Shown here piece after piece: positions 41,627-55,467 of a DNA stretch of 64,000 nt; position 1 is the first letter of the stretch, and each line of letters starts with the position of its first letter. The position numbers were made by a program, and so were the translations under genes. The notes below the pieces were generated by a model that made no database searches, was not told where the DNA came from, and worked only from the letters and a program-made list of their open reading frames with translations. The stretch comes from Methylobacterium sp. (GTDB lineage: Bacteria > Pseudomonadota > Alphaproteobacteria > Rhizobiales > Beijerinckiaceae): positions 48,227-112,226 of the forward strand of contig PNLY01000007.1 of the NCBI GenBank assembly GCA_013823325.1, read 5' to 3'.

Positions 41627-42523
41627 ATGGCTCTGAATCCCAACCGCTTCGGCCTATCCTGCGCCATCACCACGCCGATGCAGGAAGGCGGCGCCGTCGA
41701 CCTGCCGCGGCTCGTCCACCACGCCAAGCATGTGCTCGCCAATGGCTGCGACTCGGTCACGCTGTTCGGCACGACCGGCGAGGGCGCGGCGCTCGGCAGC
41801 CCGGCCCGCACCGCCATGCTCGGTGCTTTGATCGGCGCCGGCATCGACCCGGCAAAGCAGATCTACGCCGGCGTCGCCGCCGCCTCGCTGCACGAGGCCG
41901 TCGATCAGGCGCAGACCGCGCTCAATGTCGGTGCCAAGGGCCTGCTGGTCGCGCCGCCCTTCTACTTCAAGGGCGTCGGCGACGAGGGGCTCTATGCCTG
42001 GTTCTCGCAGTTCTTCGAGAAGCTCGGCGCTTCCGCCCGCAACACCATCCTCTACCACATCCCCTCGGTGACCGCGGTCGACATCTCCGTCGGGCTGGTC
42101 GAGCGGCTGAAGAAGGCCTTTCCGGGCGTCGTCACCGGCGTCAAGGATTCCTCCTGCGACTACCCGACGACCGAGGCTTTCCTGAAGGCGCATGGCGAGC
42201 TCGCCATCCTGGTCGGCGACGAGCGCCTGCTCGGCCGAGCCGTTCGCGCTGGCGCTGAGGGCTCGATCTGCGGCGCTGCCAACCTCGTGCCGCATCTGCT
42301 GCGTCCGGTCGTCTATGAAGGCGCCGAGGACGCCACCGTGAACGCGCTCGTCGACGAGATCTGCTCCTATCCGGTGCTGCCGGCGGTCAAGGCGCTGGTC
42401 GGCCATCTCCATGGCGATGCCGGCTATGGCCCGATGCGGGCGCCGCTGGTCGCGCTCGACGAGGGCCAGCGCAAGGCGCTGTTCGCCGCCTTCGACCGGA
42501 TCACCCGCGCCAAGGCGGCCTGA
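41627..42523 (+). CDS. DapA/NAL-family aldolase, probable 2-keto-3-deoxy-sugar-acid aldolase
   Basis: A 298-aa Schiff-base lyase of the dihydrodipicolinate synthase/N-acetylneuraminate lyase family. Visible residues are GTTGEG (48-53), Y143 in ILYHIPSVT and the Schiff-base lysine K173 in GVKDSS. True DapA is unlikely because the gene lies among sugar-uptake genes and a GntR regulator. In the Campylobacter fucose locus a DapA-like protein serves as 2-keto-3-deoxy-L-fuconate aldolase; here the same role (pyruvate plus L-lactaldehyde) is inferred from the fucose-type enzymes on the other strand. Confidence 0.85.
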   Translation: MALNPNRFGLSCAITTPMQEGGAVDLPRLVHHAKHVLANGCDSVTLFGTTGEGAALGSPARTAMLGALIGAGIDPAKQIYAGVAAASLHEAVDQAQTALNVGAKGLLVAPPFYFKGVGDEGLYAWFSQFFEKLGASARNTILYHIPSVTAVDISVGLVERLKKAFPGVVTGVKDSSCDYPTTEAFLKAHGELAILVGDERLLGRAVRAGAEGSICGAANLVPHLLRPVVYEGAEDATVNALVDEICSYPVLPAVKALVGHLHGDAGYGPMRAPLVALDEGQRKALFAAFDRITRAKAA

Positions 42524-42533
42524 GGAGGACGCG

Positions 42534-43208
42534 ATGAGCCAGCCCGATCCGGAGCGCGACGGCGAGCCTCTGAAGCTCAGGGAGCGGGCCTATGCCAGCT
42601 TCACCGAGCGGCTGCTCGCGCGCGAGATCCGGCCGGGCCAGTTCGTCACCCAGCGCGAGCTCGTCGCCATGACGGGCTACCCGCTCGGCGCCATCCGCGA
42701 GCTGATCCCGCGGCTCGAGGCGGAAGGGCTGATCAAGACCGTGCCGCAGCGCGGCATGCAGGTCGCCCATGTCGACCTCAATTTGATCCGCAACGCCTTC
42801 CAGTTCCGGCTCTTCCTCGAGAAGGAAGCGACCGCCGCCTATACGAGGACCGCGACCGACGAGGAGATCGCCGAGCAGCGCCAGCGGCATGAGGCGATCA
42901 TCCGCCGCGCCGAGGCCGGCGGCGACGAGACGCTGATCGAGGATGCGGAGAACGTCGACCGGCTGATGCACGAGATGATCATCGACCATCTCGACAACGA
43001 CATCGTCAGCCAGGCCTTCCGCGTCACCTGGCTGAAGATCAGGCTGATCCGGCAATACGAGACGCGAATCCAGAACCACATCCTCATCCCGGTGATGCAG
43101 GACCATCTCAAGATCATCGCCGCGATCGAGTCGCGCGATCCCGAGGCGGCTGCCGCCGAGATGAGCGCGCATATCAACAACGCCCGGACGAGGGCGATGA
43201 GCTACTGA
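42534..43208 (+). CDS. GntR-family transcriptional regulator (FCD type)
   Basis: A 224-aa regulator with an N-terminal winged helix (about 15-75; TQRELVAMTGYPLGAIRELIPRLEAEGLI) and a helical FCD domain (about 85-215). The start has GAGGAGGA upstream and follows the aldolase by 10 nt, so it is cotranscribed with it. It is the likely controller of the fucose-type genes and of the TRAP genes that follow; its ligand is probably the sugar acid intermediate. Confidence 0.9.
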   Translation: MSQPDPERDGEPLKLRERAYASFTERLLAREIRPGQFVTQRELVAMTGYPLGAIRELIPRLEAEGLIKTVPQRGMQVAHVDLNLIRNAFQFRLFLEKEATAAYTRTATDEEIAEQRQRHEAIIRRAEAGGDETLIEDAENVDRLMHEMIIDHLDNDIVSQAFRVTWLKIRLIRQYETRIQNHILIPVMQDHLKIIAAIESRDPEAAAAEMSAHINNARTRAMSY

Positions 43209-43265
43209 ATATCAAACAACCAGACCGGGAAACGGCTGTTTCTAGGGAGAAGACCGAAGCGCTTA

Positions 43266-43391
43266 CCTACAGCCCTCATCCTGAGGAGCCGCGTCAGCGG
43301 CGTCTCGAAGGGTGCTTCAGGAGGCTCCAGAACCGTCCGGAACATCCTTCGAGACGCGATCTGCGATCGCTCCTCAGGATGAGGGCTGTAG
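43266..43391. repeat. Long intergenic inverted repeat (CCTCATCCTGAGGAGC type)
   Basis: CCTACAGCCCTCATCCTGAGGAGC at the left end has its reverse complement at the right end, with a partly paired centre containing CGTCTCGAAGG and CCTTCGAGACG. The whole could fold as one long hairpin between gntR and dctP. Similar CCTCATCCTGAGGAGC elements are common in alphaproteobacteria. Confidence 0.75.
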
Positions 43392-43427
43392 GGGAGGCGC
43401 CGAGGTCACAACGGGAGGAGAACGACG

Positions 43428-44420
43428 ATGACCAAACTGACGAAACGCGCCTTTCTCGCCGGTTCCGCCGCGGCCGGCACGATGATCGCGATGCCGACCG
43501 TGCTGCGCGCTCAGGCGACCGTGCTGCGCTGGGGCGAGATGCTGCCGGTGACCCATCCGCAGGTGCAGATGGTCGACCGCATCGCCAATGAGGTGAAGGA
43601 GAAAACCTCCGGCCGCGTCGACATCCAGTCCTTCCCGGCCGGCCAGCTCGGCTCCGGCAAGGACATGATGGAATCGGTCGCCTCTGGCGCGCTGACCATG
43701 ACGACGGACGGCGCTGCCGCGCTCGGCTCCTTCCTGCCGCAGCTTTCGGTGGTCGAGGCGCCCTATCTCTGGCGCGACCCCGCCCATATGGCCAAGGTCG
43801 CCAAGGCGCCGGTGTTCGCCCAGATGAACGAGGAGCTGATCAAGAAGCGCGGCATGCGCATGGCGGCCGTGACCTATTATGGCAAGCGCCACCTCACCAC
43901 CGGCTCGAAGGCGGTGAAGAGCGCTGCCGACGTGGCCGGCCTGAAGCTGCGCGTGCCGCCGGTCGACACCTTCCGCGCCATGGTCGAGGCCTGGGGCGCC
44001 AAGGCGACGCCGGTCAACTTCAACGAACTCTACCTCGCGCTGAGCCAGGGCGCGGTCGACGGCCAGGAGAACCCGCTGCCGACGATCCATAGCGCCAAAC
44101 TGCAGGAGGTGCAGAAGCACCTGATCCTGACCGGCCACATCATCACGCCGCGCCTGATCATCGTGAACCAGGACTTCTGGAAGGGGCTGAAGGACGCCGA
44201 CCGGACGATCCTGGAGGCGGCCATCGCCAACGGCGTCGCCTGGCAGGACGCCGAGCTCGCCAGCCAGGAAGGCAGCCTCGTCGCGACGCTGAAGGCGGCC
44301 GGGATGAGCGTCACCGAGCCCGACCTCGAAAGCTTCAGCAAGCCGGTGCTGGCGAGCCTGCCCAAGCAGTTCGAAAGCAAATGGGGCAAGGGCACCTGGG
44401 ACGCGCTCGCGGCCCTGTGA
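43428..44420 (+). CDS. dctP: TRAP transporter substrate-binding protein DctP
   Basis: A 330-aa periplasmic receptor with a signal peptide (TKRAFLAGSAAAGTMIAM, cleavage near LRA-Q, residue 26; a Tat-like KR start). DctP features: VLRWGEMLPVTHPQVQM, FPAGQLGSGKDMMESV, GLKLRVPPVDTF with the carboxylate-binding Arg, and LALSQGAVDGQENPL. GGGAGGAGAA precedes the start. It belongs with dctQ and dctM downstream but is separated from them by a 193-nt gap holding a large hairpin repeat. The ligand is probably a sugar acid related to the aldolase pathway (inference). Confidence 0.93.
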   Translation: MTKLTKRAFLAGSAAAGTMIAMPTVLRAQATVLRWGEMLPVTHPQVQMVDRIANEVKEKTSGRVDIQSFPAGQLGSGKDMMESVASGALTMTTDGAAALGSFLPQLSVVEAPYLWRDPAHMAKVAKAPVFAQMNEELIKKRGMRMAAVTYYGKRHLTTGSKAVKSAADVAGLKLRVPPVDTFRAMVEAWGAKATPVNFNELYLALSQGAVDGQENPLPTIHSAKLQEVQKHLILTGHIITPRLIIVNQDFWKGLKDADRTILEAAIANGVAWQDAELASQEGSLVATLKAAGMSVTEPDLESFSKPVLASLPKQFESKWGKGTWDALAAL

Positions 44421-44446
44421 CGGGCAAATTCGTAAGTGAGTCTGGC

Positions 44447-44600
44447 GCGGGGAACCCTCTCCTGGAAGGAGAGGGTAGGGTGAGGTGTAGGCGGTTCGAC
44501 CAGCGCCGCGAGCCCTCGCCGCGCCCTTCGGTTCACGCCAACGTTTCCGCTCCGAGCACCTCACCCCTGCCCCTCTCCTTCCAGGAGAGGGGTGCCCCGC
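44447..44600. repeat. Large hairpin repeat, copy 1 (CCCTCTCCT...AGGAGAGGG type)
   Basis: The ends (GCGGGG, CCCTCTCCTGGAAGGAGAGGG, and the mirrored CCCTCTCCTTCCAGGAGAGGGG, CCCCGC) pair over a long stretch around a loop with GTTCGACCAG and GCCAACGTTTCC. A homologous copy in the other orientation lies at 59765-59911. It separates dctP from dctQM. Confidence 0.8.
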
Positions 44601-44613
44601 GGTTCAAGGTCCA

Positions 44614-45117
44614 ATGGCTATGAAATCCGTCGTCGCCCTCACCGACCGTCTCGTCCGCGCCGCCGCCGTCGGCCTGCTGCTGGCGTTGCTGGTCGCGGTC
44701 CTGCTCGGCGTCGGCTCGCGCCAGCTCAACGCCCCGCTCGCCTGGACCGATGAGCTGGCGCAATACCTGCTGGTCTGGACCGGCTTCGTCGGCTGGATCA
44801 TCGCGGCTCGCCGACGCTCGCATATCCGCATCACCGTCTTTGCCGATCTCCTGCCCAAGTCGGCCGGGCGCCTGCTGGAGATCGTGACGCAGGCCGCGAT
44901 CATCCTCTTCGCCGCGATCCTGATCCGCTACTCCTTCGGGCTGATCGAGCGGACCTGGGATGTCGAATCGATCGCGCTGCCCGTATCGAGCGCAGCCCTC
45001 TACGTGGTGATGCCGCTGGCAGGCCTCGCTTTGATCCTGCAGGCGCTGGCCGAGATCGGCGACGTGCTCGCCGGCCGCAAGGTCGACACCGCCGAGCCGG
45101 GGACGCAGCCGCTATGA
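44614..45117 (+). CDS. dctQ: TRAP transporter small permease DctQ
   Basis: A 167-aa four-helix membrane subunit. It has the DctQ block RQLNAPLAWTDELAQYLLVWTGFVGWIIAARRRSHI (about residues 35-70) and hydrophobic segments near 10-30, 46-66, 85-105 and 125-148. Its stop overlaps the dctM start as ATGA. It lies just after the hairpin repeat, so its expression may be uncoupled from that of dctP. Confidence 0.92.
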   Translation: MAMKSVVALTDRLVRAAAVGLLLALLVAVLLGVGSRQLNAPLAWTDELAQYLLVWTGFVGWIIAARRRSHIRITVFADLLPKSAGRLLEIVTQAAIILFAAILIRYSFGLIERTWDVESIALPVSSAALYVVMPLAGLALILQALAEIGDVLAGRKVDTAEPGTQPL

Positions 45118-46400
45118 GCACGCTGATGCTGCAGATCCTGCCGGTCTGGTTCGCCGCGTTGCTGCTGGGCGTGCCGCTCTTCGTCTCGATGGGGCTGGCG
45201 GCGATAGCCTTCGCCTTCTTCGGTGGCTTCCCGCTCGGCATCGTCCCGCAGAAGATCGCGCAATCCGCCAACTCGTTCCCGCTGCTGGCGGCGCCGCTCT
45301 TTATCCTGATGGGCAACATCATGAATTCGGCGGGGATCACCGACCGGATCTTCGCCTTTGCCACGGCCTGCGTCGGCTGGCTGCGCGGCGGGCTCTGCCA
45401 CGCCAACATCCTCGCCAGCGTGATTTTCGCGGGAATGTCGGGCTCGGCGGTGGCTGATGCCGGAGGCGTCGGCACGCTCGAGATCAAGGCGATGCAGGAC
45501 GAGGGCTACGATCCCGAGACGGCGGCGGCGATCACGGCGGCTTCGGCGACGATCGGGCCGATCATCCCGCCTTCGCTGCCAATGGTGATCTACGGCGTTT
45601 CCGCCGACGTCTCGATCGGCGGGCTCTTCCTCGCCGGCGTCATCCCCGGCCTGCTGATGGCCGGCGCGCTGATGGCGATGGTGGTCTATGTCGCGAAGAA
45701 GCGCGATCTGCCGCGCCATCCCTTCCCCGGCGCGGCCCAGCTCTGGGTCGCCTATAAGGAGGCGCACTGGGCGCTGATGACCCCGGTCATCCTGTTCGGC
45801 GGGATGATGCTGGGCATCTTTACGCCGACGGAGGCGGCTGCGGTCGCGACCGCCTATGCGATCGTGCTCGGCCTCTTCGTCTACAAGAGCTTCTCGCTGA
45901 ACGATCTGCCGGAACTGGTGGTGCAGACCGTCGAGACCACCGGTGTCGTGCTGGCGCTGGTGATGGCGGCGGCGGCGCTCGGCTGGTGCCTGTCGATTTC
46001 GCGCATCCCGCAGACGGTCGGCCCGATGCTGGTCGACCTCGCCGGCAACCCGCTGATCTTCCTCCTGATCGTCAACCTGCTGCTGCTCTTCGTCGGCTGC
46101 TTCATGGAAGCGCTGGCGGCGATGCTGATCCTGATCCCGATTCTGACGCCTGCCGCGGCGCAGTTCGGCATCGATCCGGTCCAGTTCGGGCTGATTTTCG
46201 TGCTCAACCTGATGATCGGCACGATCACGCCGCCGGTGGGCGTCGTGCTCTTCGTCACCTCGAAGATCGCCAAGATCTCGTTCGAGGCGATGTCGCGGGC
46301 GATCGTGCCCTGGCTCCTGCCGCTGCTCGCCGTGCTCGCCGCGATCACGCTCTGGCCACCGCTGACGACCTGGCTGCCGAACCTCGTGCTCGGCAAATGA
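45114..46400 (+). CDS. dctM: TRAP transporter large permease DctM
   Basis: A 428-aa, about 12-helix permease. Signature regions: AAPLFILMGNIMNSAGI, FAGMSGSAVADAGGVGT, ASATIGPIIPPSLPMVIYG, FTPTEAAAVATAYA and GTITPPVGVVLF. It overlaps dctQ by 4 nt and ends 7 nt before the convergent SIS gene, leaving no room for a separate terminator. Confidence 0.95.
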   Translation: MSTLMLQILPVWFAALLLGVPLFVSMGLAAIAFAFFGGFPLGIVPQKIAQSANSFPLLAAPLFILMGNIMNSAGITDRIFAFATACVGWLRGGLCHANILASVIFAGMSGSAVADAGGVGTLEIKAMQDEGYDPETAAAITAASATIGPIIPPSLPMVIYGVSADVSIGGLFLAGVIPGLLMAGALMAMVVYVAKKRDLPRHPFPGAAQLWVAYKEAHWALMTPVILFGGMMLGIFTPTEAAAVATAYAIVLGLFVYKSFSLNDLPELVVQTVETTGVVLALVMAAAALGWCLSISRIPQTVGPMLVDLAGNPLIFLLIVNLLLLFVGCFMEALAAMLILIPILTPAAAQFGIDPVQFGLIFVLNLMIGTITPPVGVVLFVTSKIAKISFEAMSRAIVPWLLPLLAVLAAITLWPPLTTWLPNLVLGK

Positions 46401-46407
46401 GATTGGC

Positions 46408-47433
46408 TCAGACCGTCCGCGTCACCTTGGAGAGGTGGGGCGGGCGGTCCGGATCGAGACCGCGGCTTTGCGCGAGCGTCGCGAGCGCGCCATAGAAGGC
46501 GCGGGCCTGCGCCAGCGGCAGCAGGGCAGCCGGCAGATCGGGCGGAAGTGGCAAACTCTCTCCGACGCCGGGACTACCGCCGGCATAGCGCAGATCGGCG
46601 CCGAGGCCAGCGAACGCTGTGGCGGCAGCGCTCACGCTCTCGCTGCCCTCGTCGCCCGGATCGAGCGCCAGCGCCGGAAAGCCCGGGCCGACCAGCGCGA
46701 GCGGGCCGTGCAGCACCTCGGCGGCGCTGAAGGCCTCGGCATGGATGCGGCAGGTCTCCTTGAATTTGAGCGCGATCTCCTGGGCGATGCCGAAGGACAG
46801 CCCGCGCCCGATCACATAGAGGCTGCTGGCCTCGCGCCAGGAGAGCAGGGCCGGTGTCCAGTCGCAACGCCCGGCGGCGTCGAATGCCTCGGGCGCCTGC
46901 GCCAGCGCGGCGGACAGGGCCTCGTCCTGCGCCCACTCGGCCGTCAGCTGCAGGAAGGCGAGGCAGGTGGCGAGGAAGCTCTTGGTCGCGGCGACGCTCT
47001 TCTCTGCCCCCGCCCGCAGCGGCACGAGCACGTCGACCATGGCGGCGAGGGGCGAGCCCTCGTCATTGACGAAGCCGACCACCAGTGCCCCGGCCCGCCT
47101 CGCAGCTTCGGTCAGCAGCAGCGCGTCGGGGCTGCGGCCGGATTGCGAGGCGGCGATGAACACGGCGCGCGACAGATCGAGCTCGCCGCCATAGACCGAG
47201 GCGAGGCTCGGGCCGAGCGAGGCGACCGGCAGGCCGAGGGTGCGTTCGATCAGGTATTTGCCATAGGTCGCGGCATGGTCGGAGGAGCCGCGCGCGCAGG
47301 TTGCGACGAAGGCCGGCCGCTTGATCCGCAGGCGTTCGACGAGATCGGCGATGGCCGCGCCGTTCTCGCTGCGCTGGCGGCGCGCGACGGTGGCGGCCTC
47401 GGCCGCCTCACGAGTGAGCAGGGCTTCAACCAT
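46408..47433 (-). CDS. SIS-domain sugar-phosphate isomerase/deaminase or deglycase
   Basis: A 341-aa protein equal to the isomerase half of glucosamine-6-phosphate synthase without the glutaminase half. It has two SIS domains: TCARGSSDHAA (45-55) with AASQSGRSPDALL (95-107) bind the phosphosugar, and KFKETCRIHAEAFSAAEVLHGPLALV carries E226 and H242, matching E488 and H504 of E. coli GlmS. The C-terminal HLSK retains the lysine of the GlmS tail. This set fits type II glucosamine-6-phosphate deaminase or fructosamine-6-phosphate deglycase (FrlB type). It overlaps the PfkB gene by 8 nt and is the last gene of the operon. Confidence 0.85.
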   Translation of the reverse strand: MVEALLTREAAEAATVARRQRSENGAAIADLVERLRIKRPAFVATCARGSSDHAATYGKYLIERTLGLPVASLGPSLASVYGGELDLSRAVFIAASQSGRSPDALLLTEAARRAGALVVGFVNDEGSPLAAMVDVLVPLRAGAEKSVAATKSFLATCLAFLQLTAEWAQDEALSAALAQAPEAFDAAGRCDWTPALLSWREASSLYVIGRGLSFGIAQEIALKFKETCRIHAEAFSAAEVLHGPLALVGPGFPALALDPGDEGSESVSAAATAFAGLGADLRYAGGSPGVGESLPLPPDLPAALLPLAQARAFYGALATLAQSRGLDPDRPPHLSKVTRTV

Positions 47434-48385
47434 GGCAGCGCAAGGGCTCTTCGAGCAATCGGTCGGCGATGTCGGCAACCTGACGTGGATCGATCCCCCG
47501 GCCGGCGCCGCCGACACTCTGGACCGAGAGCGTACCACAGGCGATGCCTTCGGCGAGGGCGCGTTCGGCGGGGCTCTCACGGAGCCAGGCGGCAAGGAAG
47601 CCGGCGTTGAAGGCATCGCCCGCGCCGGTGGTGTCGAGCACGCCCTGGCAGGGCGCGGCGGGGAGCGCGAGGCTCTCCTGCCCGTGATAGAGGCGGGCGC
47701 CGTTACCACCATCCTTGATCACCACCAGCGAAAAATTCCGGGCAAGCCGCCGTCCGGCTGTATCGAGATCGTCGCTATCGGCGATCGCGCGCGCTTCTGC
47801 TGCGTTCGGCAGGAAGATGTCGACGCCATTGCACAGGGCGATGAGATCGGGCGAGCGGATCAGGGCATCGTCCCAGCTCGGGTCGAGCGAGACGGTGAGG
47901 CCGTGATGTTTGGCGTCGGTCACCAGATGCGGGATCTCGGCCAGCGTCGCGAATTCGGCGATGTGGAGATGGGCCGCGCGGACATCGCCGAGCGCGGCGG
48001 GCAGCGTCGCCGGGCGGGCTGGCCCGGCACGGCGGGAGAGGAAGGCGCGCTCGCCATCCTGCACCATCGCGACGGTGAGCTGCGGGCCGGCGTCGGGCGC
48101 GCGCTCCAAAAAGCCTAGCTCGACGCCGCTGCGGTCGAGAGCCGGCAGCAGCGATTGCGCAAGCGGGTCCTCGCCGAGGCGCGCGAGCAAGGCGGCGGGG
48201 CGCCCCAGGCCGACGAGATGGGCCGCGGTGATGAAGCCGCCGCCGCCGGGCACGATCGTGAGGTCCTCGGCGAAGCGCTCCTCGCCGAGGCGCGGCATCG
48301 CCTTGAGCCCGCGGAAGACGAGGTCGCAATAGAGCCGGCCGGTGCTGAGCACGAGCCCGTCCGGCCGTGGCTGCCGGGCCGTCAC
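47426..48385 (-). CDS. PfkB-family carbohydrate kinase
   Basis: A 319-aa ribokinase-fold kinase. The N-terminal GGGGFITAAHLVGLG (47-61) binds the sugar, and the C-terminal DTTGAGDAF (251-259) carries the catalytic base D257 and anion hole. NAAEARA at 194-200 is the usual NxxE-type region. Paired with the SIS protein it probably phosphorylates an amino sugar or a sugar-amine adduct before deamination, as FrlD does before FrlB. It overlaps the ATPase gene by 4 nt. Confidence 0.88.
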   Translation of the reverse strand: MTARQPRPDGLVLSTGRLYCDLVFRGLKAMPRLGEERFAEDLTIVPGGGGFITAAHLVGLGRPAALLARLGEDPLAQSLLPALDRSGVELGFLERAPDAGPQLTVAMVQDGERAFLSRRAGPARPATLPAALGDVRAAHLHIAEFATLAEIPHLVTDAKHHGLTVSLDPSWDDALIRSPDLIALCNGVDIFLPNAAEARAIADSDDLDTAGRRLARNFSLVVIKDGGNGARLYHGQESLALPAAPCQGVLDTTGAGDAFNAGFLAAWLRESPAERALAEGIACGTLSVQSVGGAGRGIDPRQVADIADRLLEEPLRCHG

Positions 48386-49449
48386 AGGGCGCGCTCGCTC
48401 TGGGCGTCGAACAGGCGCAAGCCCGAGGCCGCGGCGCCGAGCTGGACGGCGCTGCCGACGGCGGGCGGGTTCTTGGCAGGAGCCGAGGCGAGCAGCAAAC
48501 CGCCTGCGGCCTCGACATGGACGAAGGTCTCCGGCCCCAGCGGCTCGACCACGGCGACCGTGCCGGAGAGGATGAGGTCGGCGGCTTCGCCCTGATCCAG
48601 CACGCGCAGTTCCTGCGGCCGGACGCCGATGAGGACATCGCTCGGGAGCGCGGTGGGCCAGGCGAGCGGCGCTTCGCCTAGGCGCAGCGTGCTACGGCCG
48701 GCCTCCGCCACCGCTTTCGCCGGCATGATGTTCATCGTCGGCGAGCCGATGAAGCGGGCGGTGAAGACGTCGGCCGGCTTCTCATAGAGCTCCATCGGTG
48801 CGCCGACCTGGAGGATATGGCCGTCGCGCATCACCACGATCCGGTCGGCAAGGGTCATCGCCTCGACCTGGTCATGGGTGACGAAGACGATGGTGGTTCC
48901 CAGCCTCTGGTGCAGGCGCTTGATCTCGAGCCGCATCTGCGCGCGCAATTGCGCATCGAGATTGGAGAGCGGCTCGTCGAACAGGAAGACGGCGGGGTCG
49001 CGCACCATGGCGCGGCCGATAGCGACGCGCTGGCGCTGGCCGCCGGAGAGGGCGGACGGGCGGCGCTCCAAGAGCGGCGTCAGGCCGAGCACCTCGGCGA
49101 CCTCCTCGACCCGCTTGCGCTTGGCTGCCTTGTCGAGCCCGGAGGTGTAGAGGCCGAAGGCGATGTTCTCGGCGACGCTCATATGCGGGTAGATCGCATA
49201 GTTCTGGAACACCATGGCGATGTTCCGCTCTTTCGGCTCGAGCCGGTTCACCACCCGACCGCCGATCGAAATCGTGCCGTCGTTGATCTCCTCCAGCCCG
49301 GCGACCATGCGCAGGGTCGTCGACTTGCCGCAGCCGGACGGGCCGACGAAGACGACGAATTCGCCATCCTGGATGTCGAGGTCGATGCCATGCACGACCT
49401 GCGTCGGGCCATAGCGCTTGACCAGTCTCTCGATCGCGATCCCGGCCAT
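48382..49449 (-). CDS. Sugar ABC transporter ATP-binding protein (UgpC/MsmX type)
   Basis: A 355-aa ATPase of the CUT1 class. Walker A is GPSGCGKST (36-44), the Q-loop FQNYAIYPHM, the signature LSGGQ (134-138) and Walker B FLFDEP (155-160); the H-loop is in FVTHDQVEAM. The C-terminal TOBE/OB region (about 240-350) is present, as in regulatory or multi-system ATPases. It is the only ABC ATPase in the window and may also serve the permeases at 39801-41548. The start overlaps the lyase stop by 1 nt. Confidence 0.94.
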   Translation of the reverse strand: MAGIAIERLVKRYGPTQVVHGIDLDIQDGEFVVFVGPSGCGKSTTLRMVAGLEEINDGTISIGGRVVNRLEPKERNIAMVFQNYAIYPHMSVAENIAFGLYTSGLDKAAKRKRVEEVAEVLGLTPLLERRPSALSGGQRQRVAIGRAMVRDPAVFLFDEPLSNLDAQLRAQMRLEIKRLHQRLGTTIVFVTHDQVEAMTLADRIVVMRDGHILQVGAPMELYEKPADVFTARFIGSPTMNIMPAKAVAEAGRSTLRLGEAPLAWPTALPSDVLIGVRPQELRVLDQGEAADLILSGTVAVVEPLGPETFVHVEAAGGLLLASAPAKNPPAVGSAVQLGAAASGLRLFDAQSERAL

Positions 49450-50966
49450 CAGGCGGCTCCTGCAAGGGCGGTGAAGGCTGCGTCGAGCTCGCGGCGTGCG
49501 GCGTCTTCGCGTTTGGCGGTCGCAGCGGCTGCGTCTTCAGCTGCCGTGAGCTCGCCGCGATAGGCGGCGAGCGCTTCGCCGAGCGCCGTCGGGCCCGGCC
49601 CGCCGAAGCGCTCGCGCAGAGCGACGAAGTTCTCCGGCGAGACCGCGGTGGCGAAATCCTCGCGGCTGAGCTGCGGCTCGCGGCCCGCAGCGTGGCGGAA
49701 GGCGGCGGCGAAAGGCGCGTAGCCGTCGCGCGGCAGGTCGCCGTCCTTGGCGACGACCGCGCGCGCGACCGCTGCCGCGATCTCATGCGCCGCGCGGAAG
49801 GAAAGCCCTTCCTGGCGCACCAGCGTATCGGCGAGTTCGGTGACGGTGATGCAGGAGCGCCGGATCGTCTCGGCGACGCGGCGGCTGTCGACGCTGAGCG
49901 CCGGCAGCAGCGCGGCCAGCAGGTCGAGCACGCGCCCGCCGCTCTCGAAGGTCTGGTAGCCGGCGTCCTGCGTCTCGCCTTCGCTGTCGTTCATGTCGGT
50001 GAACGGCGTGTTGTGGACGATGTCGCGGACCATGCGGGCGCGGCTCATCGTCTGCGAGGCGAGATGGCGCAAATGCTCGATCGGCACCGGATTGCGCTTC
50101 TGCGGCATGATCGAGGAGATCTGCACGAAGGCGTTGGGGACGTAGATCTGGCCGACCTCGAAGGCGGTCCAGAACTGCAGGTCCTGGATCAGCCGGCCGA
50201 GATGCAGGAAGACCAGCTCGATCGCGCTGAATACGGCGGTCGTGTAGTCGACCGCGGCGATGCAGCCATAGGAATTCCGCAACGGCGCCTCGAAGCCGAG
50301 CAGATGGGCGGTGCGATGGCGGTCGAGCGGGAAGCCGGAGGTCGTGATCGCGGCTGCCCCGAGCGGGCAAAGGTCGAGCAACTCGCGCGCCTGCATCAGG
50401 CGCCGATGGTCGCGCAGCATCACCTCGATCGCGGCGGAAAGGTAATGGCCGAGCGTCGAGGGCTGGGCCGGCTGACCATGGGTGTAGGCGACGATCAGCG
50501 TCGCCTTCTCGCGCTCGGCCAGCGTCAACGCCGCGGCGATCAGGGCGCGCAGCTGGCCGGCAAGCTTGTCGAGTCGCGGCTTCAGCGCCAGCTTGAACAA
50601 GGTGTGGTCGATGTCGTTGCGTGAGCGGCCCGTGTGCAGGCGGCCATTGTCGTCGGGTTGCAGCCGCTTGCGCAGCTCGGCCTCGACCAGGAAGAAATAA
50701 TCCTCGACCTCGCCGGTATAGGTCAGCGCCGCTGGCTCGATCTCTTTCTCGACCGCAATCAGGGCTCGGGCGATGCGCGAGGCGGTCTCCCGCGGGAGAA
50801 TCCCCGTCTCGGCCAGCATGACGAGATGGGCGCGGTCGATGGCGCGGAAGCCGTCGACATGATGCGTCCTGGCCCCGTCGAAGAGCGGGCGCAGCACCGT
50901 CTCCTTGTAGACCGGGTTCGGAAAGACGGAGTTATCGCTGACGCGCGGGTCGGCGGGTTCGATCAT
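49449..50966 (-). CDS. Argininosuccinate-lyase-like C-N lyase (aspartase/fumarase superfamily)
   Basis: A 505-aa member of the superfamily that eliminates fumarate from N-substituted aspartates. Signature regions are HTGRSRND (111-118), YTHGQPAQP (161-169) and the flexible catalytic loop SSIMPQKRNP (284-293). A GSS-type serine is kept, but THGQ replaces the THLQ common in ArgH. An ordinary arginine-biosynthesis role is doubtful because the gene lies between sugar ABC permease and ATPase genes (6-nt gap before it, 1-nt overlap after it). EDDS lyases are ArgH-like enzymes acting on other N-succinyl compounds, so a glycated or N-sugar aspartate is a reasonable substrate guess (inference). Confidence 0.82.
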   Translation of the reverse strand: MIEPADPRVSDNSVFPNPVYKETVLRPLFDGARTHHVDGFRAIDRAHLVMLAETGILPRETASRIARALIAVEKEIEPAALTYTGEVEDYFFLVEAELRKRLQPDDNGRLHTGRSRNDIDHTLFKLALKPRLDKLAGQLRALIAAALTLAEREKATLIVAYTHGQPAQPSTLGHYLSAAIEVMLRDHRRLMQARELLDLCPLGAAAITTSGFPLDRHRTAHLLGFEAPLRNSYGCIAAVDYTTAVFSAIELVFLHLGRLIQDLQFWTAFEVGQIYVPNAFVQISSIMPQKRNPVPIEHLRHLASQTMSRARMVRDIVHNTPFTDMNDSEGETQDAGYQTFESGGRVLDLLAALLPALSVDSRRVAETIRRSCITVTELADTLVRQEGLSFRAAHEIAAAVARAVVAKDGDLPRDGYAPFAAAFRHAAGREPQLSREDFATAVSPENFVALRERFGGPGPTALGEALAAYRGELTAAEDAAAATAKREDAARRELDAAFTALAGAA

Positions 50967-50971
50967 CGAAC

Positions 50972-51814
50972 TTATCCCTTCAGCCCGGCGAGCACGACGC
51001 CGCGGACGATGTAGCGCTGCAGCAGCAGGAAGACGGTGAGCGTCGGCAGGGTCGCCAGCGCCGCGCCCGTCATGATCAGCTCCCACTGGACTTGTGCCTC
51101 GACGGCGTAGCTCGTGAGGCCGACGGGCAGGGTGTAGAGTTCCTTGCTGGTCGTCACGATCAGCGGCCAGATGAAGGCCGTCCAGTTGCTGAGGAAGGTG
51201 AAGATCGCCAGCGCCGAGAGCGCCGGCGTGACCAGAGGCAAGGCGATGCGCCAGAAGATCGCGAACTCGTTGAGGCCGTCGACGCGTGCTGCCTCGAGGA
51301 AATCGTTCGGCACCGTCTCGAAGAACTGCTTCATCAGGAAGGTGCCGAAGGCGGTCATCATGCCGGGGAACATGATGCCCCAATAGCTGTCGAGCCAGCC
51401 GAAGTTCTTGGCCATGACGTACCAGGGGATGACCAGCATCTCGGTCGGAATCATCAGCGTCGACAGGATCGCGACGAAGACGAGGTAACGGCCGCGGAAC
51501 TGGAATTTCGCCAGGGTGTAGCCGACCAGGCTGTCGAAGAAGACGTTGGAGAGCGTCACCGCCGTGGCGATGCCGAAGGAATTGGCGAACCAGCGCAGGA
51601 AGCGGCCGTCGGACAGCACCGTCACGTAGTTCTCGAGCGTCGGATGCGCCGGGAAGAAGGCGAGATCGTAGATCTCGGAGGAATCCTTCAGCGAGGTCGC
51701 GAACATGAAGGCGAGCGGCGTCACCATCAGCAGGCCGCCGCCGAAAAGCAGCAGCCAGGTCAGGATGCGGCCGGGCTCGATCCGGCCGGAGACGGGGGAG
51801 GCGATGGCGCTCAT
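50972..51814 (-). CDS. Sugar ABC transporter permease (MalG/UgpE-like)
   Basis: A 280-aa CUT1 permease with six helices, including ILTWLLLFGGGLLMVTPLAFMFATSLK at the N-terminus and the EAA loop LEAARVDGLNEFAIFWRIALPLVTP. The C-terminal YIVRGVVLAGLKG tail is MalG-like. The start overlaps the partner permease stop as TGATG. Confidence 0.93.
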   Translation of the reverse strand: MSAIASPVSGRIEPGRILTWLLLFGGGLLMVTPLAFMFATSLKDSSEIYDLAFFPAHPTLENYVTVLSDGRFLRWFANSFGIATAVTLSNVFFDSLVGYTLAKFQFRGRYLVFVAILSTLMIPTEMLVIPWYVMAKNFGWLDSYWGIMFPGMMTAFGTFLMKQFFETVPNDFLEAARVDGLNEFAIFWRIALPLVTPALSALAIFTFLSNWTAFIWPLIVTTSKELYTLPVGLTSYAVEAQVQWELIMTGAALATLPTLTVFLLLQRYIVRGVVLAGLKG

Positions 51815-52749
51815 CAGCGGTCCCTCAGCAGGCGCAGCTGCAGCAGCGAGATGCAGAGCAGCACGAGGAAGAGCACGACGGTCTGCGCCGCGGCATAGCC
51901 CATGTCGAAGGAGGAGAAGGCGGTCTGGTAGATCATCAGCACGAGCGGCTTGGTCGCGTTCAGCGGCCCGCCGGGATCGCTGCTCGTCTGGCTGGTCATG
52001 TTGTAGACCTGATCGAAGATTCGCAGGAACCCGATCGAGGAGAAGACGACGAGGAAGATGATCGTCGGCTTGAGCAGAGGCAGCGTGATCTTCCTGAGGA
52101 TCGCGAGATCTGGGAGCCCGTCGATCCGCGCCGCCTCGTAATAGGTGGTGGGGATGGCGCGCAGGCCTGCGAGGAAGATCACCACCTGGAAGCCGAGCCC
52201 GGCCCAGATCGCCGGCGCCAGCACGGCCGGCAGCGCCTGGGTGGTCGAGCGCAGGAAGGGCTGCTGGGCGATGCCGAGCCCGGCGAGCAGGTTGTTGAAC
52301 AGCCCGATCGGCACCGGCTGGTAGAACCAGCGCCAGACCCAGGCCATCGCCGCGGCCGTGGTCAGGAAGGGCAGGAAGTACAGCGCCCGGATGAAGCCGT
52401 GCATGAAGCGGATGCGGTCGAGATGGTAGGCGATCACGAAGGCGAGGATCAGGCTGAGCGGCGTGCCGATGACGAGGTAGAGGAAGGTGTTGCCGAACAC
52501 CTTCCAGAACACCGGATCGGCGAGCAGCCGCTCGAAATTCGCCAGCCCGACGAAGCTGGGCGGCGTCATCAGGTTCCACTTCGTGGTCGAGATCACGAAG
52601 GCCTCGACCGTCGGGTAGAAGCGGATCAGCCCGTAGAACAGGATCGGCACGGCGAGGAATGCCCAGGCCCAGACCACCTGCTTCTGCTGCAGGCTGAGGC
52701 CCTGCCAGAGGCGCCCGCCGGAGCGGGCGACATCGGTGTCGGTGGTCAT
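51814..52749 (-). CDS. Sugar ABC transporter permease (MalF/UgpA-like)
   Basis: A 311-aa CUT1 permease. The N-terminal region has QQKQVVWAWAFLAVPILFYGLIRFYPTVEAF, and the EAA loop reads YEAARIDGLPDLAILRKITLPLLKP. It follows the binding-protein gene by 37 nt and overlaps the second permease. With the ATPase at 48382-49449 the transporter is complete. Confidence 0.93.
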   Translation of the reverse strand: MTTDTDVARSGGRLWQGLSLQQKQVVWAWAFLAVPILFYGLIRFYPTVEAFVISTTKWNLMTPPSFVGLANFERLLADPVFWKVFGNTFLYLVIGTPLSLILAFVIAYHLDRIRFMHGFIRALYFLPFLTTAAAMAWVWRWFYQPVPIGLFNNLLAGLGIAQQPFLRSTTQALPAVLAPAIWAGLGFQVVIFLAGLRAIPTTYYEAARIDGLPDLAILRKITLPLLKPTIIFLVVFSSIGFLRIFDQVYNMTSQTSSDPGGPLNATKPLVLMIYQTAFSSFDMGYAAAQTVVLFLVLLCISLLQLRLLRDR

Positions 52750-52786
52750 GCGCGTCCTGTCCTGACGTCTGCTTAGACGATCGCCG

Positions 52787-54046
52787 TCACTTCTTGTAGA
52801 AACGGTCGAGGATCGCCTGCTCGGCCTTGGCCGCCTCGGCGAGCGCCGCCTTCGGCTCCTGGTTCTGCAGCAGGACGCGATTGGCCATGTCGAGGATGAC
52901 TTGGCGCTGCGGCAGCTCGTCGACGAACACGGTCGCCTGCGAATAGTTCAGCGCCTTCAGGAACGGGCCGTAGATGGGGTGGGCGAGGTTCTTCTCGGTC
53001 TCCGCCGCAGCCTTGCGCGCCGGCAGCTCGCCGACCGTCTCCAGCCAGAGCTGCATCGCCTCGGGCGAGGTGACGAAGGCCATGAACTTCTTGGCCGCTT
53101 CCAGCTTCTCGCCAGTCGGCTTTGTGGTGATGGCGTTGACCCAGTAGCTGGCGAAGTTCGACTTGGTCCCGTCCGGGCCAGCCGGCAATTCGGCGACGCC
53201 CCATTCGAAGTTCTTGATGCCGCCGAAGGCACCGAGGCGGAAGGAGCCGTCGATCGTCATCGCCGCGCGCCCGGCGCGGAAGGCGGCCTGGCCCTCGTCC
53301 ATGAAGCCGGCGAGGCCGACCTTGTGGGTGCGCTGGAGATCGGCGTACCAGGCGAGCGACTTGGCGCCGGCCTCGCTGGCATAGGTCACGGTCTTGTTGT
53401 CGTCGGAATAAGGCTTGCCGCCCATCTGGCGCAGCAGCACCTCGCGCCACCAATGGTAGTCCTGGCCGGGCATGTCGAGCGTCACGCCGGCCTGCAGCAT
53501 GTTGCCGGCGCCATCGCGCTTCGTCGTCTTCTTGGCTGCGTCCAGGAATTCGTCGAGGGTCTTCGGCGGCTTGCTGGGATCGAGCCCGGCCTCCTGGAAG
53601 ATCTTCTTGTTGTAGAACAGCGCCAGCGAGCGCACCGCCGTCGGCAGGGCGTAGTACTCGCCCTCGCGCTTCATCGCCGAGACGATTGGATAGAACTCTT
53701 TCTCGATCATCTCCGGCGGGAAGGCGTCGCGCGGCAGGGGGCGGATGACCTTGCCGGCGATGAAGTTGTCGACCCAGCCATAGAAGAGCTGGACCACGTC
53801 CGGGCCCTGGCCGGCGGGTGCGGCGGCGACGATCTTGGTCTGGTAGTCGGCATAGGGGAAGGTCGTGTGCTTGACCTTGATGGTCGGGTTGGCGGCCTCG
53901 AAGCGCTTGATCAGCTCGTTCATCGCCTTGATTCGGGCGTCGAATACATATTGCCAGTACTCGATCTCGACCGCCTGGGCGCGAGCTCCGGCGATCGCGC
54001 CGACCGACATCGCGATACCCAGCAACAATCCGCGAAAGCCGCGCAT
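52787..54046 (-). CDS. Sugar ABC transporter substrate-binding protein (CUT1, family 1)
   Basis: A 419-aa periplasmic binding protein. I chose the start at 54046 because GGGAGGACAAG precedes it and a proper signal peptide follows (MRGFRGLLLGIAMSVGAIAGARA-QA). Family features: FEAANPTIKVKHTTFPYADYQTKI, LPTAVRSLALFYNKKIFQEAG and FRAGRAAMTIDGSFRLGAFG. It is the first gene of the seven-gene operon and is divergent from the ROK regulator. Confidence 0.92.
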   Translation of the reverse strand: MRGFRGLLLGIAMSVGAIAGARAQAVEIEYWQYVFDARIKAMNELIKRFEAANPTIKVKHTTFPYADYQTKIVAAAPAGQGPDVVQLFYGWVDNFIAGKVIRPLPRDAFPPEMIEKEFYPIVSAMKREGEYYALPTAVRSLALFYNKKIFQEAGLDPSKPPKTLDEFLDAAKKTTKRDGAGNMLQAGVTLDMPGQDYHWWREVLLRQMGGKPYSDDNKTVTYASEAGAKSLAWYADLQRTHKVGLAGFMDEGQAAFRAGRAAMTIDGSFRLGAFGGIKNFEWGVAELPAGPDGTKSNFASYWVNAITTKPTGEKLEAAKKFMAFVTSPEAMQLWLETVGELPARKAAAETEKNLAHPIYGPFLKALNYSQATVFVDELPQRQVILDMANRVLLQNQEPKAALAEAAKAEQAILDRFYKK

Positions 54047-54152
54047 GGTCTTGTCCTCCCCGATCTGGTTGCGATGCTCGCCTGCATCGGCTCCCGGCCG
54101 GCGAGGCATCCAAGCCGCCATGCTTTTACAGCCGCCTGCTCGCTGTCAACCG

Positions 54153-54177
54153 ATTAATTCACTTGAGTTGGATTAAT
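54153..54177. promoter_or_regulatory. Candidate ROK operator in the divergent promoter
   Basis: ATTAAT (54153-54158) and ATTAAT (54172-54177) flank the dyad ACT-TG-AGT (54161-54168), an A/T-rich near-symmetric block in a GC-rich region. It lies between the ROK gene start (54217) and the binding-protein start (54046). NagC/Mlc-type ROK repressors bind A/T-rich dyads of about this size. Confidence 0.4.
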
Positions 54178-54216
54178 GGCCGTCGCAGCTTGTGCAGGCA
54201 AGGAAGGCCGACCCAG

Positions 54217-55467
54217 ATGCCGCATCGCAAGCCGCCCGCCGCTCACAGCGCCGCCCTCGGTACGAACCCCGAGCGGGCGCGCCGCCACAACCGGCGGGTC
54301 GTGCTGGAAACCTTGCGCCAGCACGGCCGGCTCGGCCGCTCCGACATCGCCAACCTGACCCGGCTGACGGCACAGGCCGTCTCGAACATCGTCGCCGAAT
54401 TGCTGGAGGAGGGCTTCCTGATCGAGCTCGGCCGCCGGCGCACGGCGCGCGGCCAGCCGCCGGTCGAGTTCGCCCTCAATGCCGATGGCGGCGTCACTGC
54501 CGGCATGGAGATCGCGGCGGATCACATCACCACCGTGCTGGTCGACCTCGCCGGCGAGGTCAGGGCGCGGCGCGTCGCCCCCTTGCCGGACCTGGCGGTC
54601 GAGGCGGTGCAGGCGCTGGCGGCGGGCGAGCTCGCCCGGGCGCGGGCAGCGAAAGGTATGCCGGAGCGCCTGCTCGGCTGCGGGGTGGTGATGCCCGGCC
54701 CCTTCGATTTCGAGGGCACGCTCACCGTCGGCTCGACTGCGCTGCCGGGCTGGACAGGGCAGGATGTGACGGCGCTGATGAGTGCCGCTCTCGGCGCGCC
54801 GGTGACCATTGAGAACGATGCCACGGCGGCCGCGGTTGGAGAGCATCTCTACGGCGTCGGCCGCAATCTCCGCCATTTCTGCCTGGTCTATTTCGGGCTC
54901 GGCCTCGGTCTCGGCCTGATGCTCGGCGGCGAGCCCTATCGCGGCGCTCAAGGCAATGCCGGCGAGATCGGCCACCTCCCGGCTGTGCCGCAGGGGTTGC
55001 CTTGCGTCTGTGGCCGCGAAGGCTGCCTCGAACGCTATGTCTCGCCGCCGGCGCTGCAGGAGGCCTTGCGCGCGGCTGGAACTGGACCGGTCGATGCCGC
55101 CGGAATCGCCCGGCTTCAGGTCGAGGGCCATCCTGCCATCGTCGGCTGGATCGCGCAGGCCGGGAAACAGCTCTCGCCGGTGCTCGCCATGCTGGAGAGC
55201 TTGTTCGACCCGGAGACGATCGTGCTGGGCGGCTCCCTGCCGGACAGCGTCATCGATGCGCTGATCCTCGCAGCCGAACCATTGCCGCTTTCGCTCGCAC
55301 GGCGCGGCGACCGCGCAATTCCGCGCGTCCAGCGCGGCACCACCGGCCAGTTCACGGCCGCGCTCGGGGCCGCGGCACTGCCGCTGCTCGATGCGACAGC
55401 GCCGCGTCTGGTGCGCAATCCGTCGGCGAGCGAGCCGGCTGCCCCTGATCAGGTTGCTGTTGCTTAA
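54217..55467 (+). CDS. ROK-family transcriptional regulator
   Basis: A 416-aa regulator with an N-terminal winged helix (about 25-75; GRLGRSDIANLTRLTAQAVSNIVAELLEEGFL) fused to a ROK sugar-binding domain. ROK features: ENDATAAAVGEHLYG, GEIGHLPAVPQGLPCVCGREGCLE with the zinc-binding pattern CxCGxxGCxE, and a preceding ancestral kinase motif. The start at 54217 has AAGGAAGG upstream. It is divergent from the amino-sugar-type operon and probably represses it until a sugar ligand binds. Confidence 0.92.
   Translation: MPHRKPPAAHSAALGTNPERARRHNRRVVLETLRQHGRLGRSDIANLTRLTAQAVSNIVAELLEEGFLIELGRRRTARGQPPVEFALNADGGVTAGMEIAADHITTVLVDLAGEVRARRVAPLPDLAVEAVQALAAGELARARAAKGMPERLLGCGVVMPGPFDFEGTLTVGSTALPGWTGQDVTALMSAALGAPVTIENDATAAAVGEHLYGVGRNLRHFCLVYFGLGLGLGLMLGGEPYRGAQGNAGEIGHLPAVPQGLPCVCGREGCLERYVSPPALQEALRAAGTGPVDAAGIARLQVEGHPAIVGWIAQAGKQLSPVLAMLESLFDPETIVLGGSLPDSVIDALILAAEPLPLSLARRGDRAIPRVQRGTTGQFTAALGAAALPLLDATAPRLVRNPSASEPAAPDQVAVA

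Follow-up and report, generated by a model that had tools for sequence, protein, structure and literature searches.

An ArgH-like lyase in a conserved transporter operon of Methylobacterium may take part in degrading a glucosamine conjugate

Introduction

Enzymes of the aspartase/fumarase superfamily carry out eliminations in which malate loses water or aspartate loses an amine, and two of them, argininosuccinate lyase (ArgH) and EDDS lyase, resemble the gene product considered here. In a 64,000-nucleotide stretch of a Methylobacterium sp. genome (hereafter the window; contig PNLY01000007.1 of assembly GCA_013823325.1, positions 48,227 to 112,226, part of a 6.03-Mb draft genome) we examined an operon in which an ArgH-like lyase is encoded together with a CUT1 transporter, a PfkB-family kinase and a SIS protein. 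The operon may serve to import and degrade a glucosamine conjugate bearing a C4 dicarboxylate.

With ArgH (TIGR00838) the window lyase shares its fold, the catalytic Ser/His/Lys frame and the ASL_C2 domain, and its best chain by sequence in the PDB is Thermus ArgH (2e9f). Unlike ArgH, it narrowly misses the family cut-off (277.1–277.2 bits against 279.5), forms a clade of its own, carries V294 and D324 in place of Asp and Tyr, and belongs to an operon without arginine genes. EDDS lyase of Chelativorans (6g3d), a fumarate-forming relative of ArgH, is the best structural match (E 3.8e-22, TM score 0.82), but it is 26 % identical, its Q159, D290 and Y320 differ in the window lyase, and it stands apart in the tree. 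The SIS protein is likewise comparable to a described enzyme, the deaminase NagB-II (NF046059; 8eol), to which it aligns over 338 residues with GlmS-type motifs, although it remains under the NagB-II cut-off and is set in a lyase operon.

Two whole pathways are also close. The frl and fra pathways for fructosamines combine a transporter, a PfkB kinase and a SIS enzyme; all three recur in the window operon, yet its SIS protein does not belong to the deglycase family, a lyase is added and, in relatives, usually a PIG-L protein as well. The second is bacillithiol metabolism (BshA, BshB, BshC and Bca), whose product is Cys-glucosamine-malate, the last two parts being abbreviated GlcN-malate (excerpted text of PMC4360819). 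PIG-L amidases, together with a core of GlcN-malate, would be consistent with the set of enzymes seen here (PMC4101496, PMC4360819); on the other side, the window genome contains no BshC, and the alphaproteobacterial PIG-L proteins scanned are far from BshB2 (19–22 bits, cut-off 195).

Results

Operon organization and conservation

An earlier note on this DNA had described one overlapping operon in which genes for a CUT1 transporter and an ArgH-like lyase are joined by those for a PfkB kinase and a GlmS-type SIS enzyme, with a ROK regulator diverging from it. All of the genes that it named were found within the coordinates given, and the operon proper lies on the minus strand (54049–46408). 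The features are as follows.

52787..54049, minus strand: extracellular solute-binding protein of UgpB/CUT1 type (NCBIfam UgpB 94.6 bits, cut-off of 411 not reached; same place in 87 of the 91 loci described below)
51814..52749, minus strand: CUT1 permease 1, UgpA-like (UgpA 99 bits, under cut-off)
50972..51814, minus strand: CUT1 permease 2, UgpE-like (UgpE 140 bits, under cut-off)
49449..50966, minus strand: ArgH-like lyase of the aspartase/fumarase superfamily, 505 residues (Pfam Lyase_1 141 bits, ASL_C2 41 bits; own clade in the tree)
48382..49449, minus strand: ABC transporter ATPase of UgpC/MalK type (NCBIfam UgpC 474.7 bits, above the cut-off of 432)
47426..48385, minus strand: PfkB-family sugar kinase, putatively a glucosamine kinase (Pfam PfkB 130 bits; no NCBIfam equivalog above cut-off)
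46408..47433, minus strand: SIS protein of NagB-II type, a predicted GlmS-like glucosamine-6-phosphate deaminase (Pfam SIS 92 bits; NF046059 314.7 bits, cut-off 430; 226 bits to 8eol)
54153..54177, no strand: imperfect palindrome ATTAATTCACTTGAGTTGGATTAAT, an inverted repeat between the divergent genes and candidate ROK operator
54217..55467, plus strand: divergent ROK-family transcriptional regulator (Pfam ROK 150 bits with a weak helix-turn-helix match; NagC 103 and Mlc 96 bits, both under cut-off)

From the permeases onward, neighbouring genes overlap by 1–8 bases or sit 5 bases apart, and a gap of 37 bases separates the solute-binding protein gene from the permeases. For comparison we used 91 homologous loci, comprising 80 genome-contig loci (the top 80 among 572 confirmed matches, and hence close relatives by choice) and 11 plasmid loci taken from 27 records (H1–H27) whose lyase is at least 52 % identical; the 60 plasmid records listed show a sharp gap in identity between 52 and 36 %. 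As the order solute-binding protein–permease–permease–lyase–ATPase is conserved in 87 of these 91 loci, the arrangement is not due to chance. A contig end falls inside the operon in three of the four exceptions, and the solute-binding protein gene is inverted in the fourth (L047). Six Deinococcus records, of eight counted, were examined as well.

Relationship of the lyase to ArgH

The earlier note had proposed a phylogenetic placement of the lyase against ArgH and EDDS lyases, and had named, as findings that would tell against a separate function, either a firm position among biosynthetic ArgH in a tree or the absence of any other argH from the genome together with complementation of an arginine auxotroph by this gene. 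A true argH, scoring 600 bits to TIGR00838, is present on another contig of the same genome. In a maximum-likelihood tree of 38 rows, the window lyase falls outside ArgH in a clade of 16 (support 100/100), and ArgH forms a separate clade (100/99). The six Deinococcus lyases make up a third clade, joined to that of the window weakly (88/48) and with a long-branch warning at this point. The closest named lyases, from Bosea and Alsobacter, are 80–83 % identical to the window lyase, and its clade is common in Alphaproteobacteria. Given the score under cut-off, the clade of its own and the 600-bit argH elsewhere, we rejected a biosynthetic role: on the evidence of sequence, the window lyase is not the biosynthetic ArgH. 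Separately, a third ArgH-like gene of this genome (L003, G000:C137:7506-8795) scores 168 bits and sits on a very long branch.

The superfamily signature SSxMPxKxN is present in the window lyase as SSIMPQKRNP. Each residue of the catalytic frame (H111, T112, R116, N117, T162, H163, S284, K290 and N292) is kept in 91 or 92 of 92 aligned rows, and S284, H163, R116, N117, K290, N292, V294 and D324 occur in all 92. The AlphaFold model of the lyase (mean predicted local distance difference test score, pLDDT, 87.6) finds its best structural matches in EDDS lyase and ArgH. Residues described as lying near the substrate of EDDS lyase are R112, N113, Q159, N288, D290 and Y320 (excerpted text of PMC12363623), and these align with R116, N117, H163, N292, V294 and D324 of the window lyase. 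Thus, V294 and D324 replace the Asp and Tyr of the ArgH/EDDS-lyase amine pocket, both of which the ArgH rows retain. Both replacements are found in all six Deinococcus lyases aligned; among 14 other rows, V294 alone is seen in L133 and D324 alone in L135, two more distant lyases, and never the two together. The window and Deinococcus clades are ∼35 % identical, with the common motifs EDxFF, Y(T/S)HxQPAQP, MPQKRNPVxxEHxR and HNxPFxD. The part of the substrate that leaves is likely to be alike in the two clades and unlike arginine, judging from these alignments.

The SIS protein, kinases and deaminases

The SIS protein scores 315 bits with the NagB-II profile, 142 bits with GlmS and 24 bits with fructoselysine-6-phosphate deglycase (cut-off 430). 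It aligns over 338 residues, its length, with 8eol, a chain deposited as glucosamine-6-phosphate deaminase (226 bits), and GlmS-type KFKE, HGP and C-terminal HLxKVT segments are present in alignments to 7kqa, 3fj1 and 8eol. By profile and alignment, then, it is a protein of the NagB-II glucosamine-6-phosphate deaminase kind, which corrects the earlier comparison with a fructosamine deglycase.

The earlier note had proposed a search for conserved neighbourhoods of lyase, PfkB and SIS genes. A kinase-type gene is present in 84 of the 91 loci, and the SIS gene follows the operon in 11 (seven Bosea/Alsobacter, three Brucella and one Roseomonas). Mapped onto the tree of 91 lyases, presence of the SIS gene takes three changes. 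PfkB accounts for 73 of the kinase-type genes and a ROK-family protein, assigned by similarity, for the other 11. Two of the ROK proteins at the kinase place (L046 and L099) start directly with the ROK domain, the others having N-terminal extensions; the one tested there in genome G056 is a regulator with a helix-turn-helix. A classical NagB gene lies nearby in three loci (L038, L041 and L087), and together with the NagB-II-like SIS protein this points to glucosamine-6-phosphate. Genomes G100, G183 and G245 have a NagB-II gene ∼4 kb away from the lyase and on the strand opposite to it.

The lyase is carried by 24 of 297 genomes of the order, and 23 of these were tested for deaminases, G026 being omitted as a 67 %-complete genome. 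A deaminase-family gene was present in all 23, namely NagB-II (E ≤ 1e-50) in 18 and NagB (232–297 bits) in the other five. In a sample of 199 genomes of the order with at least 90 % completeness, assumed to be part of the same draw as the carrier list, 72 have NagB-II or NagB (limits E ≤ 1e-50 and E ≤ 1e-60), including all 17 carriers and 55 of the other 182 genomes (Fisher 8e-9, uncorrected for kinship). The NF046059 cut-off of 430 was passed in none of the 23 carriers and none of the 199 genomes.

A PIG-L protein beside the operons of relatives

In most loci a large PIG-L protein of ∼800 residues, with a PIG-L domain at its N terminus, is encoded behind the ROK regulator. It was matched in 70 of the 91 loci; among the rest, L051 has its upstream side outside the sequence covered and may not be a true absence. 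Its model (pLDDT 83.4) matches LnmX, MshB, diacetylchitobiose deacetylases and BshB (2ixd), with a weak ThuA-like match too. According to the excerpted text of a review, the LmbE/PIG-L enzymes identified by 2014 act on N-acetyl- or N-acylglucosamine cores (PMC4101496). An EamA transporter gene stands beside PIG-L in 50 of the 91 loci, and SIS and PIG-L occur together in none.

Among the 297 genomes of the order, the large PIG-L (E ≤ 1e-40) is found in 15, all of them within the 24 lyase carriers (hypergeometric 2e-19, uncorrected for kinship). The lyase is on the same contig in 13 of the 15, with match starts 6.0–7.1 kb apart; in the other two the genes are on different contigs, and one PIG-L copy has an in-frame stop. 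Furthermore, of 72,556 plasmid records, 21 hold a near-full-length large PIG-L, every one of them among the lyase records H1–H27. In Deinococcus, four of the six loci have the lyase, CUT1 genes, a short PIG-L and PfkB, with PIG-L between CUT1 and PfkB; the short PIG-L of L048 scores 160 bits with MshB and 116 bits with Mca, both under cut-off.

Several related observations were made in these neighbourhoods. A second large PIG-L copy, ∼42–47 % identical, is present near the operon in L126 (18-2045), L163 (16.5-18.9 kb) and G259:C86:135874-138273. Some lineages that lack PIG-L have a metallo-β-lactamase-fold hydrolase next to or upstream of the transporter (L047 6214-7062; L161 11787-12632; L159, upstream of the solute-binding protein), a possible stand-in. 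A locus of Nonomuraea gerenzanensis (L139 2085-11691) combines CUT1, PfkB, a long PIG-L and, by reading of the sequence, a GH4-like protein, with no lyase match; it perhaps handles a mycothiol-type compound. In a Rhizobium (L140 7884-9462), an ArgH-like lyase is annotated as two overlapping pieces in another CUT1 operon, near mandelate-racemase-family genes. A cysteine dioxygenase-family gene two genes from PIG-L (L043 333-986) was considered as a sign of a cysteine-bearing substrate and dropped, occurring in 1 of the 91 loci.

Regulatory region and flanking genes

The ROK regulator probably starts at the ATG at 54217, by reading of the sequence, its listed open reading frame start being the TTG at 54163. 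The palindrome pattern matches 11 of 83 regions, against 0.65 expected from base shuffles; the matches are in the window, the seven Bosea/Alsobacter loci scanned and only three of 75 other regions. No Rfam family reached threshold over 40–58 kb of the window. Convergent on the SIS gene (42411-46400) are genes for a GntR-type regulator and, by reading of the sequence, a TRAP-type transporter, with no such cluster in relatives. These genes at 42.4–46.4 kb were rejected as members of the system, no cluster of other open reading frames (at least 100 residues) being found in more than 7 of the 91 loci.

Discussion

A possible pathway for a glucosamine conjugate

From gene content, family membership, conservation, active-site changes and co-occurrence we infer a substrate, an order of steps, a kinase specificity and a product. 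PIG-L implies an N-acylglucosamine, an ArgH-like lyase implies a C4 dicarboxylate lost as fumarate, and the kinase together with NagB or NagB-II implies glucosamine-6-phosphate; taken together, these point to the import and degradation of a glucosamine conjugate bearing a C4 dicarboxylate, the leading interpretation, which we put forward tentatively and at a little short of an even chance. Under control of the ROK regulator, the CUT1 transporter would import the conjugate. Elimination by the lyase at an L-malyl or L-aspartyl group would release the C4 unit in the form of fumarate, with the sugar left behind. In most relatives the PIG-L amidase would strip the acyl group from the glucosamine nitrogen. 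Glucosamine-6-phosphate would be made by the PfkB kinase, or in some relatives by a ROK-family protein, and the NagB-II SIS protein (elsewhere NagB) would convert it to fructose-6-phosphate and ammonia. The earlier note had supposed that the lyase may free fumarate from a sugar–aspartate adduct, the kinase and SIS protein then taking up the amino sugar that remains. The link between lyase, fumarate and amino sugar survives as the best reading, and the Amadori route does not, the SIS protein being NagB-II-like.

As the sugar nitrogen is acylated in a PIG-L substrate, the C4 unit would most simply be held on oxygen, as malate, and on these sequence-based grounds we favour an O-malyl link to glucosamine over an N-linked aspartate. 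To our knowledge, and with no dedicated search made, no member of the aspartase/fumarase superfamily has been described that expels a sugar. Bacillithiol contains L-malate, and the natural substrates of fumarases have this configuration too. Bacillithiol or its precursors are candidate substrates, bacillithiol being a known compound with exactly the parts N-acylglucosamine and malate. Catabolism of bacillithiol or of its GlcN-malate core would then comprise C–O elimination of the sugar from malate followed by glucosamine kinase and deaminase, with PIG-L removing cysteine or acetate in most carriers, and the bacterium, having no BshC, would be a consumer of bacillithiol and not a maker. In the open-licence papers that our searches brought up, no catabolic pathway for bacillithiol was found described, nor any pathway with the ArgH/PIG-L or the fumarate/Heyns/deglycase combination. 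We consider bacillithiol or GlcN-malate, the boldest candidate, a minority bet, and rather unlikely, because its place as substrate is deduced, the window operon is without PIG-L and the PIG-L protein is without the BshB arginine.

A number of observations weigh against the glucosamine-conjugate reading or against bacillithiol in particular. The window operon has no adjoining PIG-L; no large PIG-L was found in its genome, where a single short one lies on another contig. Arg109 of BshB contacts N-acetylglucosamine-malate (excerpted text of PMC4101496); the position before HxxH in the large PIG-L, matched by eye, is instead Q159, invariant in alignments of 6 and 16 rows, so that this enzyme may come into play later than the lyase, or have a different substrate. 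In Deinococcus lyases, Arg and Leu take the places of H111 and R114 within a segment that is conserved elsewhere, and the same substrate as in the window clade is thus not assured. Two of the six Deinococcus loci consist of the lyase and CUT1 genes only, and the L048 PIG-L protein, with NEW3 and CBM9-like domains, resembles a glycan enzyme. Carrier G225 is without CUT1 genes within ∼6 kb of the lyase, seven of the 91 loci have no recognised kinase, and no cysteine gene recurs among the clustered neighbours. Family assignments fall short as well: the SIS protein stays under the NagB-II cut-off (314.7 bits against 430), the PfkB kinase is under every kinase-model cut-off (fructoselysine 6-kinase 48.9 bits, cut-off 247), and the NagB of G154, one of the five carriers without NagB-II, reaches 231.9 bits against 236.9. 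Finally, neither co-occurrence test takes kinship into account, and a strict mutual exclusion of SIS and PIG-L was dropped, tree-corrected pairs not being significant.

Alternative explanations

The foremost alternative places the C4 unit on nitrogen. In this case the substrate would be an N-(1,2-dicarboxyethyl) amino sugar, such as a Heyns-type fructose–aspartate adduct, from which the lyase would release fumarate and glucosamine for the kinase and NagB-II. The closest folds, ArgH and EDDS lyase, are indeed C–N lyases, and the path in the window would be complete through the SIS protein with no need of PIG-L; however, an orthologous lyase with the same active-site residues adjoins PIG-L in 70 of the 91 loci, implying an acylated sugar nitrogen there. 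We also know of no natural source of such an amino sugar, our search by name having been limited to the fumarate/Heyns/deglycase literature, and we judge this variant unlikely.

Next in rank, and also unlikely, is a non-sugar N-substituted aspartate (argininosuccinate-, iminodisuccinate- or EDDS-like) as substrate of the lyase, the kinase and SIS protein serving a second compound of the same transporter. The identity of the nearest enzymes by structure (EDDS lyase and ArgH) and by sequence (Thermus ArgH) agrees with such a role, as do the loci without a recognised kinase and the two Deinococcus loci of lyase and transporter only. It is at odds with the kinase-type gene in 84 of the 91 loci, with the kinase and PIG-L in four of the six Deinococcus loci and with the replacement of both amine-pocket residues of EDDS lyase.

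A polysaccharide- or glycan-derived N-acetylglucosamine with a malyl-type ether, imported after extracellular release, seems improbable to us. The NEW3 and CBM9-like domains of the Deinococcus L048 PIG-L protein, and the similar long protein in the Nonomuraea locus, have the look of secreted glycan enzymes; yet no glycoside hydrolase recurs among the clustered neighbours, and the alphaproteobacterial PIG-L has no evident signal peptide by reading of its sequence.

An Amadori pathway of the frl/fra kind, in which the kinase would phosphorylate a fructosyl amino acid, the SIS protein act as deglycase and the lyase handle released or bound aspartate, shares the outline of kinase, SIS and transporter and a 49-bit match to fructoselysine 6-kinase, but we rejected this analogy of the earlier note as very improbable from how the SIS protein and the kinase score against the families concerned (for the SIS protein, the deglycase model, with its cut-off of 430, gives 24 bits and NagB-II 315), with NagB and ROK-family kinases replacing SIS and PfkB in some relatives, classical NagB nearby in three loci and PIG-L left unexplained.

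Significance

Should the glucosamine-conjugate interpretation be correct, a widespread gene that is often named argH in public records, many of the plasmid matches among them, would encode a lyase that frees glucosamine from a C4 acid, and its annotations would be corrected accordingly. It would also widen the range of leaving groups in the ArgH branch, and would single out candidate genes through which a bacterial redox thiol, or a related conjugate of an amino sugar, is used as food. Going by its title, one paper (PMC6282198) reports that, of all thiols in bacteria, bacillithiol derivatives appear to be the most widespread; what becomes of these compounds in soil and sea is thus a question that this operon would make testable.

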